Assembly (NCBI RefSeq): GCF_023195925.1
Contig: NZ_JALPRE010000001.1
Span: 372,001 to 436,000, forward strand
Direction of reading: 5' to 3'
Length of the DNA: 64,000 nt
Source: Aquimarina acroporae
Lineage (GTDB): Bacteria > Bacteroidota > Bacteroidia > Flavobacteriales > Flavobacteriaceae
The first letter of the stretch is position 1. The number at the start of each line of letters is the position of its first letter. The notes beneath the pieces were generated by a model. That model was not told where the DNA came from, searched no databases, and saw only the letters and a list, made by a program, of their open reading frames with translations. A program made the translations under genes and the position numbers. This document shows positions 12,042 through 51,246 of the stretch, one piece after another.

Positions 12042-12199
12042 GTATTATTAACTTTTCTTTGAGGCACAAGGTACAAGAAATTTGGTATTGTCTATTGTTA
12101 AAGTAGTTGTAAAAAAGGGGTAACATAATGATATAAACAAGTTTTGTAGAGTTTCTATTCTAATTACCAAGGATATAATAATTGTACATCAGAAAAAAG

Positions 12200-12500
12200 A
12201 AAAGCAGATCATAAGCCGGATTCTGTTCCTTGAAACATCAAGACCCTTATCATTTATCTGGGCCAACAATTACTCATTGGCTCTAACCGCCTACCCTCCA
12301 ACATTGGACGCGTAATCCTCAAAAGTTGGTATACATGGCGTTGCACCGTATAGAGTTTACCTGATTTCACTACAGCATTACCTGTACATTCTTTCTGTTG
12401 CACTTGTCCTCATCTTACGATGGACGGGCGTTACCCGCTATACTACGCTTTGGTGTCCGGACTTTCCTCGACAAATGCCGCGATAAGGTGATCTGCTTGC
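12200..12500 (-). ncRNA. rnpB: RNase P RNA (M1 RNA)
   Basis: Read on the minus strand the RNA begins with AAGCAGATCACC and ends with GGATTCTG-complement segments and a final GATCTGCTT, so the 5' and 3' ends pair (P1: 12490-12498 with 12202-12210). The universally conserved CGAGGAAAGTCCGGACACCA lies at 12451-12470, and ACAGAAA, the GGGTAACGCCCG hairpin and GGAACAGAATCCGGCTTAT are also present. It is the catalytic RNA that trims tRNA 5' ends. A T-rich stretch (TTTTCTTTTTTC on the minus strand) follows the 3' end. Ends are accurate to a few bases. Confidence 0.95.
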
Positions 12501-42535: not shown

Positions 42536-43291
42536 TTATAACCGCACTGGTATTTTATGATCTTTTAGTTCTTTTTTAAGCTCTTTAATTTCTATTTCTT
42601 TAAAGTGAAAAACACTTGCAGCCAGAGCGGCATCTGCTTTACCTTCTATAAAAGTGTCTACAAAGTGCGTTTTGTTACCTGCTCCGCCTGAAGCAATTAT
42701 AGGAATGTTTAACTCCGTAGATAATTTTGCTAAAGCTTCATTAGCAAAACCGTCTTTTGTCCCATCGTGATCCATAGAGGTAAACAAGATTTCACCAGCG
42801 CCTCGTTGCTCAACTTCTTTTGCCCATTCAAACAAATCTAATTCTGTAGGCACCTTACCTCCTACCAGGTGTACTTTCCATGCTCCATCAATCTGTTTAG
42901 CGTCTATAGCTACAGTAATGCATTGACTACCGAATTTTGAAGCCAAGTCATTTATTAACTGCGGATTCTTAACCGCAGAGGAATTCACTGAGATTTTATC
43001 GGCCCCATTTTGTAACAGAATATCCACATCTTCAACAGAAGATATACCACCACCCACTGTGAATGGGATATTCACCTTCTCAGCAACACGTAATACAAGA
43101 TTGGCCAACGTCTTTCTTCGTTCTTCGGTAGCTGAAATATCAAGAAAAACCAGTTCGTCGGCTCCAGCTTTTGAATATATATCTGCCAATTCTACTGGAT
43201 CTCCGGCATCACGTAAGTCTACAAAGTTCACTCCCTTTACGGTTCTCCCATTTTTTATGTCTAAACAAGGGATTATCCTTTTTGTCAGCAT
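42536..43291 (-). CDS. hisF: Imidazole glycerol phosphate synthase, cyclase subunit
   Basis: A 251-residue TIM barrel. [19 protein letters not shown] holds the first catalytic Asp; [25 protein letters not shown] (second Asp) and [13 protein letters not shown] are family marks. It forms ImGP and AICAR with ammonia from HisH. Its ATG shares one base with the stop of the DinB gene (TAATG), indicating translational coupling. Confidence 0.97.
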
Positions 43292-43806
43292 TAGTCGTTA
43301 TTTTTTATATTTAAATCGAATCCATCATAGAATCCTAAACTTCTTTTATCTTTCAACTGTTTGGTCCAAAATGCTATTTGTCCGGTGTGATACGAATAGT
43401 GCTCAGTAATATGTACAGCAATACCAATTCCCGAAAAAGTAAATCCTTGGACCTCTCTTTTTCTAAGTAATTCATCCTGAGGTAGATTTTTTAAAACATT
43501 TTTTGCTTCATCAACTACATCAACCAGCATATTTAAAAGTTCTGCTTTTCTTAAACCATCTTGGGCAGCAAACTCTTTATCTCGATCCCTATGATCTTCT
43601 TTTTTGCCAAGAGAAGAAATTCCGTATTGGGTAATATTCCCACATAGATGCAAAATTAAATTCCCTACACTATTAGAATTTTTATTGGGTCGTTTCCAAA
43701 TATCATCTTCAGAAAGTTGATCAAAACTTAGTGTGATCATGCGTGTACTTTCTTCAAGTCGATATATAATCTGATCAACAAATTCTTTGGCTACTTGGTC
43801 ATTCAT
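43291..43806 (-). CDS. DinB-family (DUF1572) metal-binding protein inside the his operon
   Basis: A 171-residue four-helix DinB-like protein. The metal triad is intact: His53 (ILHLCGN), His136 and His140 ([13 protein letters not shown]). DinB/YfiT relatives include thiol-dependent transferases using bacillithiol or mycothiol, and bshA in this window shows the cell makes bacillithiol. It lies two bases after hisA and overlaps hisF by one base, so it is fully embedded in the his operon. A specific role in histidine synthesis is unknown. Confidence 0.88.
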
Positions 43807-46315: not shown

Positions 46316-47251
46316 TTATTCTTTGGCGCCAAAAAGACGCTTTTTAAATGCCATAAATGCACCTCCTATACCAAGTGCAATAAATTTCCAGAACTTAAGT
46401 ATTATGGCTAAAACTCCAGTTTTTGCAAGTATTTTACCTGCTATCAATCCTCCGATACCGTAAGCTGCTACTTCATCAATATCAGGGTTAAAATCATCAT
46501 ATCTGCTTCCTGTTTTAAATTCAACACTTGCAAGGATAGGGTCTAGATTTCCTTTTACATCTTCAAGGTCATTCATATCTCCAATCACATTTAGGTTAAT
46601 AAACCCTTTACGCCCCAGAACCCTAATATTGTAGTTTAATGTATTTTCTTCATAATCACCAAACTTAAGTTCTTTGGCCCAATGTAATTTTTTATTTTCC
46701 TGATCATAAAATGGAGCAGATGCCCAACCTATAAGCTCTACCGAAGGGTACCCTTGCTTAATTCGTTCTGGGTTTACACTTTTTGTATCTTGCTGCATGG
46801 TTTCCAATAGTTCATCGTAGTCAATATCATCGGCATCATCATCTTCGATATACCCTTCTTCAGAATATGAAATTTCGACAGCGTAACTTACATCTACCGG
46901 AGATTCCTCTTCTTTTACCAACATTCCTAATAACCCAGAATCTTGATCTTCTGGGTTTCCCCATAAATCTGTAAGTACATAATTTGCCTGTTTTTTATCC
47001 AAAAACTTATATCCTGCTGGGACTTGCAAAAGTGCCAATTCGTTACCTAACGAAACACTCCCATATTGGTAATTAAAAGTTTGTTCTATACTATCGCTGT
47101 ATTTCTGGAAGGCCATCATAAGCTCTTCTGCATTCACTACTTCTTCCTGAGTAGTATCATTCTCCTGGCTTACTTCTTCTTGTGCCCAACTTTGTATTCC
47201 TTGACATAGTACTAGAGCAACGGTTAATACATTTGATACAATTTTTCTCAT
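46316..47251 (-). CDS. DUF2167 membrane protein inside the his operon
   Basis: A 311-residue exported protein with signal peptide (RKIVSNVLTVALVLCQGIQ, then SWAQ). The ectodomain shows the DUF2167 pattern: YGSVSLGNELALLQVPAGYKF, ADYVLTDLWGNP-like segment, LLGMLV, and WAKELKFG...TLNYNIRVLGRKGFINLNVI. Two C-terminal hydrophobic segments (VAAYGIGGLIAGKI... and AIILKFWKFIALGIGGAFMAF) give a membrane anchor followed by a basic tail. Function of DUF2167 is unknown. It sits between hisC and hisB with 23- and 27-base gaps on the same strand. Confidence 0.85.
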   Translation of the reverse strand: MRKIVSNVLTVALVLCQGIQSWAQEEVSQENDTTQEEVVNAEELMMAFQKYSDSIEQTFNYQYGSVSLGNELALLQVPAGYKFLDKKQANYVLTDLWGNPEDQDSGLLGMLVKEEESPVDVSYAVEISYSEEGYIEDDDADDIDYDELLETMQQDTKSVNPERIKQGYPSVELIGWASAPFYDQENKKLHWAKELKFGDYEENTLNYNIRVLGRKGFINLNVIGDMNDLEDVKGNLDPILASVEFKTGSRYDDFNPDIDEVAAYGIGGLIAGKILAKTGVLAIILKFWKFIALGIGGAFMAFKKRLFGAKE

Positions 47252-50170: not shown

Positions 50171-51028
50171 TTACAATACCATTTTTTCTATTGGACAAAC
50201 CAAAATACCCTCTGCTCCTTCTGACCTTAATTCATCTAAAATATCCCAGAACTTATTTTTCTCTACTACCGTATGAATAGAGCTCCATCCTTTTTCAGCA
50301 AGAGGGAGTACTGTAGGGCTCCGCATTCCTGGAAGTATCTTTACGATATCTTCAATTTTTTCGTTGGGTGCATTAAGCAATACATATTTAGAATTTCTAG
50401 CCTTTAAAACCGCTTGAATTCTAAATTGTAATTTGCTTAAAATTTGTTTATTTTCTTCAGAAATTTTTGGTGACACCGCTAATACTGCCTCAGAAGTCAG
50501 CATAACTTCTACCTCTTTCAAATTATTTTTGAATAAGGTGCTTCCACTTGAAACAATATCACATATTGCATCTGCCAGTCCAATATTAGGGGCAATTTCT
50601 ACAGAACCTGAAATTTGGTGTAACTCGGCAGAAATTCCTTTTTGCTCAAGATATTCATTTACTGTATTTGGATAAGAGGTAGCAATTCTTTTACCATTAA
50701 GGTCTTGGATAGAATTATATTCAAAATCTTTAGGTACCGCCAAGGAAACCTTACACTTTGAAAAATTTAATCTCTCGGCAATAGAAATGTCTTTCCCTTT
50801 TTCGATAAGCACATTCTCCCCAATAATGGCGATATCTACCACCCCATCTCGTAAATATTGAGGAATATCTCCATTACGAAGAAACATTACCTCCATAGGA
50901 AAATTACGAGTTTGTGCTTTTAGTTGGTCTTTTCCGTTGTCGATTGAAATACCGCAATCTTTTAAAATCTTAACCGAATCTTCATTAAGTCGGCCACTTT
51001 TTTGAATAGCGATTTTAATTTTTGTCAT
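50171..51028 (-). CDS. hisG: ATP phosphoribosyltransferase, long form
   Basis: 285 residues from the ATG at 51028 (an upstream in-frame ATG at 51058 lies in the terminator-flanking leader and would add 10 atypical residues). IKIAIQKSGRLNEDSVKIL, LAVPKDFEYNSIQDLNGKRI, VSGSTLFKNNLKEV-type PRPP loop and a C-terminal regulatory domain (LLNAPNEKIEDIVKILPGM) identify the long, histidine-inhibited HisG. It performs step 1. Expression is likely set by the leader attenuator just upstream. Confidence 0.95.
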   Translation of the reverse strand: MTKIKIAIQKSGRLNEDSVKILKDCGISIDNGKDQLKAQTRNFPMEVMFLRNGDIPQYLRDGVVDIAIIGENVLIEKGKDISIAERLNFSKCKVSLAVPKDFEYNSIQDLNGKRIATSYPNTVNEYLEQKGISAELHQISGSVEIAPNIGLADAICDIVSSGSTLFKNNLKEVEVMLTSEAVLAVSPKISEENKQILSKLQFRIQAVLKARNSKYVLLNAPNEKIEDIVKILPGMRSPTVLPLAEKGWSSIHTVVEKNKFWDILDELRSEGAEGILVCPIEKMVL

Positions 51029-51066: not shown

Positions 51067-51107
51067 TTAAAATAAAAAAACCCGTTTGAATGTCTCAAAC
51101 GGGTTTT
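51067..51107 (-). terminator. Attenuator terminator of the his operon
   Basis: AACCCGTTTGA (51079-51089) and TCAAACGGGTT (51095-51105) form an 11-bp stem with a 5-base loop; on the minus strand the stem is followed by a run of Ts. It sits between the leader peptide stop (51139) and hisG (51028), so transcription must read through it to express the operon. Confidence 0.9.
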
Positions 51108-51152
51108 GATATATAGTTGTTTTATGCACATACCACACTTACCACGCCTGAG
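51094..51152 (-). promoter_or_regulatory. his attenuator antiterminator pairing
   Basis: On the minus strand CTCAGGCG (51152-51145), within the end of the leader peptide frame, can pair with CGTTTGAG (51101-51094), the 5' arm of the terminator, using 8 bp with two G-U pairs. A ribosome stalled on the His codons (51177-51166) would leave this segment free and block the terminator; a ribosome reaching the stop codon at 51139 would cover it and let the terminator form. Confidence 0.7.
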
Positions 51153-51195
51153 CGAAAATGTAAGAATGATGATGATGTACAAATAAATTTTTCAT
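51139..51195 (-). CDS. hisL: his operon leader peptide
   Basis: An 18-codon frame from ATG (51195) to TAA (51139-51141) reading MKNLFVHHHHSYIFAQAW, with four consecutive His codons, all CAT. It precedes a strong terminator and hisG. This is the textbook arrangement for ribosome-mediated attenuation: low charged tRNA-His stalls the ribosome and favours read-through. The symbol is by analogy with enterobacterial hisL; the peptide sequence itself is unrelated. Confidence 0.88.
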   Translation of the reverse strand: MKNLFVHHHHSYIFAQAW

Positions 51196-51215
51196 GTCTT
51201 TTTTCAAATACCCTG

Positions 51216-51246
51216 CGAATTTATGAAAAATATTTTTTTATCAAAA
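51216..51246 (-). promoter_or_regulatory. Putative promoter of the his operon
   Basis: On the minus strand TTTTG (51246-51242), 18 bases, then TAAATTCG (51223-51216), one mismatch from TAnnTTTG. The transcript would begin about 15 bases before the leader peptide ATG. Confidence 0.4.

Follow-up and report, generated by a model that had tools for sequence, protein, structure and literature searches.

The his operon in the window (the whole stretch of 64,000 nucleotides from Aquimarina acroporae that was analysed) raises the question of whether its transcription is governed by the short region ahead of hisG, for which a preliminary description had proposed ribosome-mediated attenuation in response to histidine. 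Judged from the sequence and from models of RNA folding, this region is very probably a classical ribosome-mediated transcription attenuator that senses charged tRNA-His, and the earlier proposal is supported by a conserved leader, terminator and competing stem. In the his operon of Escherichia coli, attenuation works through the choice between antiterminator and terminator hairpins.

The leader ORF consists of 18 codons followed by TAA (stop codon at 51141-51139, minus strand) and carries a codon run for the operon's own product (Table 1). The claim of an 18-codon leader with four consecutive CAT codons ahead of hisG is thereby confirmed at 51195-51139, with hisG recognised by its match to TIGR00070. 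The (CAY)4 run is unique to this ORF when both strands of the whole window are considered, and among the upstream regions of the 46 window ORFs of at least 150 aa the sole His leader is the one at hisG; E. coli hisL, used as a positive control, was recovered with the identical scan. The leader RNA also folds far above chance (z -5.2).

Table 1. Features of the his leader region and the his operon in the window.
Feature	Position	Strand	Basis or remark
Putative promoter pair: TTTTG (51246-51242), 18 nt, TAAATTCG (51223-51216)	51246-51216	minus	resembles the -33/-7 consensus
Leader peptide ORF, MKNLFVHHHHSYIFAQAW then stop	51195-51139	minus	read from sequence; conserved in relatives
Four consecutive His codons, all CAT (regulatory codons)	51177-51166	minus	read from sequence
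Antiterminator 5' strand, CTCAGGCG	51152-51145	minus	inside the final leader codons; pairing and folds
Shared segment CGTTTGAG: antiterminator 3' strand and part of the terminator 5' arm	51101-51094	minus	pairing and folds
Intrinsic terminator hairpin, 13-14 bp, then T-rich tract to ~51069	51107-51077	minus	terminator scan and fold
hisG, ATP phosphoribosyltransferase, first operon gene	51028-50171	minus	TIGR00070
Acetyltransferase-like ORF between hisG and hisD	50160-49741	minus	N-acetyltransferase matches, all under curated cut-offs
Rest of the his operon: hisD, hisC, hisB, hisH, then hisA, hisF, hisIE	49653-41932	minus	profile matches for the first four; the last three by eye

The element is located ahead of its cognate biosynthetic operon, the ATG of hisG lying at 51028, ~110 nt beyond the leader stop. 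Non-his ORFs within the operon, both without an NCBIfam match, are found on the minus strand at 43291-43806 (DinB-like by eye) and at 46316-47251 (a signal-peptide-like start by eye), and elsewhere in the window a class A RNase P RNA lies at 12197-12499 (minus strand). The promoter consensus of Bacteroidota is a -33/-7 pair, and a pair resembling it had been pointed out just upstream of the leader. In 14 of the 61 Aquimarina rows, inspected by eye, the -7 block is kept as ATAAATTCGC in 13 and as ATACATTCGC in one, but TTTG occurs at the -33 place in just six, so that conservation speaks for the -7 part of the putative promoter and less for its -33 part.

An intrinsic terminator separates the leader from the first gene. 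The terminator scan finds 14 pairs at 51107-51077, and folding of the same segment gives 13 pairs with -16.7 kcal/mol; the hairpin first outlined as 11 bp at 51079-51105 does exist, but was drawn too short. The proposed pairing of the leader end with the terminator 5' arm (8 bp, two G-U) is recovered as the helix of CTCAGGCG with CGTTTGAG, which continues after a one-base bulge with three more pairs. This extended pairing amounts to -14.2 kcal/mol and was equalled by one of 200 mononucleotide shuffles.

The window RNA was folded in each state of the model, with ribosome footprints being assumed. When a ribosome occupies the His run and the terminator 3' arm is still to be made, CTCAGGCG and CGTTTGAG form a long hairpin of -18.8 kcal/mol, and with the ribosome at the stop codon, covering CTCAGGCG, the predicted fold is the terminator. 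Pairing and folds together describe an antiterminator whose 3' strand belongs to the terminator 5' arm and which, given the assumed footprint, would be free beside a ribosome on the regulatory codons. In the full-length RNA the terminator is favoured even when the ribosome is stalled (-27.4 versus -18.8 kcal/mol), so the switch would have to be kinetic and decided during transcription. Before the 3' arm is made, the RNA folds as the antiterminator also without a ribosome; a protector hairpin that would impose termination without translation is therefore unsupported for the window, where a hairpin over the leader appears in the full-length fold and is absent from the pre-terminator untranslated fold.

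The proposed mechanism begins with a short transcript that would start just upstream of the leader ORF, with a ribosome translating it in the wake of the RNA polymerase. With charged tRNA-His in short supply, this ribosome would stall on the four CAT codons and leave CTCAGGCG, a few codons further on, free to pair with the freshly made terminator 5' arm. The resulting antiterminator, which would enclose a small inner hairpin, would allow the polymerase to read into hisG and the rest of the operon. When histidine is plentiful, the ribosome would reach the stop codon and cover CTCAGGCG, the terminator would form, and transcription would end near 51070.

The check suggested for this mechanism was conservation of the His codons and of the competing stems upstream of hisG in relatives. 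HisG was used to locate these regions in overlapping samples, with a match in 64 of 66 genomes of the genus, 354 of 395 of the family, 128 of 196 of the order, 174 of 396 of the class and 252 of 296 of the phylum; the order and class names of the sampled relatives are those presumed to follow from the genus Aquimarina. The loci comprised the genus matches apart from one at a contig end (G037), 102 loci of the family, as a rule one from each genus, and, beyond the family, loci from a range of other families, and since for family, class and phylum they were drawn among the matches listed, the sample leans towards well-scoring HisG. To these, 80 named loci were added (Aquimarina, Maribacter, Zobellia, Cellulophaga, Muricauda, Arenibacter and others), the nearest named relative having 95% HisG identity. 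After three loci with a short upstream sequence (L237, L242, L349), a duplicate (L339) and 34 identical 200-nt copies were left out, the 406 loci gave 368 unique upstream sequences, which divide into 351 and a further 17 of family f89.

A leader was counted where at least three His fell within five codons of an ORF of 7-45 codons within 300 nt. Outside f89, such a leader is found in 335 of the 351 unique hisG upstream regions, against ~3.8 in dinucleotide shuffles and a reverse-strand count of 3. It is present in 62 of 63 regions of the genus, 102 of 102 of the family, 24 of 24 of other families of the order, 77 of 89 of other families of the class, 26 of 27 of other classes of the phylum and 44 of 46 further named loci. 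Since the sequences are related, these counts are not independent, and the breadth across families is the stronger argument: among the other families of the class, at least one locus has the leader in 31 of the 36 sampled, and in 27 of them the terminator too. Among all 80 named loci, 78 have a His-run leader, while L136 has two adjacent His and L139 none. The 16 regions that missed the criterion include L134, where the count used the wrong reading frame and a leader is present, L136 with only its two adjacent His, L170 (on the same contig as L139) with none, and L251 and L274, whose His ORFs lie just beyond the 300-nt limit; doubtful among those counted are, for example, L316 and L322.

The leader is absent from all 17 hisG regions of f89 (L335, L337, L338, L341, L342, L344, L345, L347, L348, L350-L352, L354-L356, L359 and L375), a family of the same order that has kept hisG in genomes of 600 kb, in one case 300 kb. 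This state perhaps represents a loss of regulation in endosymbionts.

A terminator follows the leader in 299 of the 335 loci, compared with ~2.6 in mononucleotide shuffles. By group, it passed in 61 of 62 loci of the genus, 102 of 102 of the family, 22 of 24 of the order, 62 of 77 of the class, 8 of 26 of the phylum and 44 of 44 named loci, with a cut-off that misses some terminators in other classes that look real by eye (L386, L387). These figures bear on the alternative that translation of hisG, and not transcription, is the main target of the leader, by reinitiation or by sequestering of the hisG start. Translational attenuators do exist (PMC9413887), and the low pass rate in other classes of the phylum would suit this reading, even though some of the remaining loci look real by eye; on the other side, the leader is separated from hisG by a T-tract terminator in the window, as it is in 185 of 188 cases from the genus, the family and other families of the order, and the ~110 nt from leader stop to hisG start in the window also argue against it. 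Translational control is thus highly improbable here as the main action, and transcription attenuation is the reading followed below.

Some loci depart from the common arrangement. In L277, L291, L314 (of family f3) and L325, the end of the His-rich ORF lies, as seen by eye, near TCC TCC or TCC TCT, and a complementary GGAGGA or AGGAATG at or after the stop could form a hairpin over the stop codon, the usual terminator not being evident; these loci perhaps hold a different or translational version. In another class of the phylum, L380-L385 and L395 have hisG leaders with 8-12 His, some with a GTG start, and in the three of them that were examined (L380, L385, L395) no clear terminator was found between leader and hisG.

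The competing helix is likewise widespread. In Flavobacteriales the ORF mostly ends in CTCARGCG and the terminator arm is CGTTTGAG or CGTCTGAG, and in several other families the leader strand is GGTAGGC or GGTAAGC, often spanning the stop codon, and is paired with GCTTACC. Cognate antiterminator pairing in the 185 Flavobacteriales loci has a mean of -11.26 kcal/mol versus -10.59 kcal/mol when partners are permuted, and the corresponding means for 62 loci from the class outside this order are -10.84 and -9.00 kcal/mol; in each set the cognate mean is stronger than in every one of 2000 permutations, a test in which related loci are not independent. When the RNA that would be freed by a ribosome stalled on the His run is folded, the antiterminator forms in 288 of 299 loci, against 87 in the null, while it appears in 83 of 299 folds of the untranslated RNA, and 289 of the 299 full-length RNAs adopt the terminator. 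The end of the ORF contains the antiterminator strand, or is crossed by it, in 289 of the 299 loci.

The alignment used for covariation holds 122 of 138 chosen Flavobacteriales loci and, by leaving out eight without the arm motif and eight by length, favours the helix. RNAalifold predicted zero pairs from the 122 rows, and the helix was therefore tested by naming its pairs and by folding each sequence. In 119 distinct rows, 94.5% of the cells of the named helix are paired, as opposed to 20-48% when the helix is slid and 93.2% with partners shuffled. As to the covarying stem that had been expected, 15 cells are altered on both sides versus 6.2 shuffled, but only 2 of the 8 helix pairs change on both sides within the order (shuffled mean 1.6); the helix is largely conserved in sequence, so covariation within the order is modest.

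Codon choice gives a further view of the same strand. Where a leader has a Gln-Ala (QA) pair, the Ala codon at the ORF end is GCG without exception in the genus (57 of 57) and in 86 of 87 cases in the family, whereas GCG makes up 11 of the 158 Ala codons (7%) in the his genes of the window. The preceding Gln codon is CAG in 40 and CAA in 17 leaders of the genus, and in 33 and 54 of the family, both being able to pair. A base-pairing role predicts such a pattern, with GCG fixed and the Gln codon free among pairing-competent forms, and selection on the leader end is visible here at the level of RNA. What the preliminary description had led one to expect of relatives is borne out, in that conservation of the His codons, the terminator and the competing stem goes far beyond chance and other families of the class have different but matched sequences.

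The element is tied to hisG. A pattern for the whole element finds one site each, at hisG by eye, in 47 of 61 genus genomes, and the reversed pattern finds none; as a search for other genes under the element in these 61 genomes, it returned only hisG, again by eye. Of 149 family genomes, 135 have a strong match to the covariance model R1 (E at most 3e-10), the placement of that match at hisG being compared only for those whose hisG place is among the matches listed. The other 14 genomes, when the lists were compared by eye, also proved to have no HisG match, 12 of them being among the HisG-less genomes listed and two (G222, G223) among the no-match genomes that are not listed. Only one of the 135 (G089) is listed without HisG, and the element is absent from 14 of 15 hisG-less genomes. 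This linkage weighs on a simpler explanation, namely a plain terminator for neighbouring transcription with a short ORF beside it by accident. Terminator-like hairpins are common, and the weaker R1 matches that were examined are ordinary terminators. However, the gene upstream of the leader in the window is transcribed divergently, so that a minus-strand terminator would serve no adjoining upstream gene; leader and terminator are jointly conserved with matched pairing; and the genus pattern occurs at one site per genome, at hisG. A chance neighbourhood is accordingly improbable in the extreme, and an attenuator remains the preferred reading.

Strong R1 matches away from hisG were found in G089 and, as a second match, in G186. 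The former (L423, G089:C11:14398-14521, minus strand) has a His leader and a terminator in a genome without a HisG match, with a next ORF ~200 nt on that is CorA-type Mg transporter-like by eye, and looks like a relic after loss of hisG. The latter (L424, G186:C126) is a second strong copy, situated ~400 nt short of the end of its contig, which may be a duplicate or a contaminant. The weaker matches examined (L418; L425-L432, L434-L438) were rejected as ordinary terminators without a His leader.

A leader RNA that binds tRNA or a ligand (T-box, riboswitch), or a protein-binding antiterminator, could likewise switch a terminator before an amino-acid operon. Against this, the Rfam gathering score was reached only by RNase P in the window and by an SRP RNA and a tRNA in 20 diverse relatives, and what has been conserved is a translated His run, spaced such that the antiterminator strand would lie just outside a stalled ribosome; such a sensor has hardly any probability compared with an attenuator read by the ribosome. 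The Rfam His_leader family (RF00514) is unmatched in the window, both at the gathering score and up to E 10, and in the 20 diverse loci, and up to E 10 nothing relevant was found in the window, the best weak match by bits being Thr_leader (28.8 against a threshold of 55). Rfam is thus blind to the element in the window and in these relatives, and his control in this group will probably stay blank in automatic annotation.

The distribution suggests, with slightly better than even probability, that a His attenuator at hisG is ancestral and near-universal in Bacteroidota, kept in free-living members and lost both in a lineage with ~600-kb genomes and together with the his operon, with no fewer than two unrelated sequences for the antiterminator, of which one often lies across the leader stop codon. 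Bacteroidota make little use of Shine-Dalgarno signals. Attenuation of this kind depends on coupling of ribosome and polymerase, which makes a conserved hisG attenuator a ready reporter of coupling, of interest in such a phylum; if ancestral, the attenuator would imply close coupling throughout Bacteroidota. It would also contradict the suggestion of a 2013 survey that such attenuators may stem from gamma-proteobacteria with very few transfers, as given in its accessible text (PMC3766115).

That such attenuators are less often described in this phylum, as the preliminary description held, is true of the searchable literature, but not of the genomes, where the element is present in most hisG regions sampled. 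None of the literature matches listed describes His-codon hisG leaders across Bacteroidota. The abstract of Vitreschak et al. 2004 (FEMS Microbiol Lett) reportedly lists Bacteroidetes/Chlorobi with the groups in which candidate attenuators occur, and the novelty would then be lower. In the searchable text of a 2021 survey of his genes in the superphylum, attenuation is named once, for enterics (PMC8305728). A 2021 transcriptome of Flavobacterium psychrophilum records, ahead of hisG, a structured 5' element that is found also in other Flavobacteriaceae genera and has no Rfam match, along with clues to leader-peptide attenuation at amino-acid operons (PMC9723704), so that, going by the accessible text, the idea is already in print at the level of the family. 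As far as these sources extend, the mechanism is classical and its occurrence in the family partly anticipated (PMC9723704), and what is added is the broad spread in Bacteroidota and the absence from Rfam.

Compared with the element here, that of F. psychrophilum stands before the same gene in the same order, and its published description, in the searchable text, is without sequence, His codons, antiterminator or spread beyond Flavobacteriaceae (PMC9723704). RF01692 is not among the Rfam matches of the window, at the gathering score or up to E 10. The Bacteroid-trp RNA of that family, a Trp attenuator, serves a different amino acid and operon. It has been described in accessible text as a candidate cis-regulatory RNA of Bacteroidetes (PMC2864571). 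With the his attenuator of E. coli and Salmonella (RF00514), the element shares the His-run leader ORF, the competing hairpins and the position before hisG; its design looks simpler, with the antiterminator 5' strand inside the last codons of the ORF and a multi-hairpin series not demonstrated. Similar in outline are the His attenuators of Firmicutes (the Bacillus cereus group and others, in three lineages), which, according to the accessible text, have three to five His in a row, antiterminator and terminator hairpins and no RF00514 match, as here (PMC9413887); they are reported from 17 genomes, whereas the element described here is found in most of the hisG upstream regions sampled.
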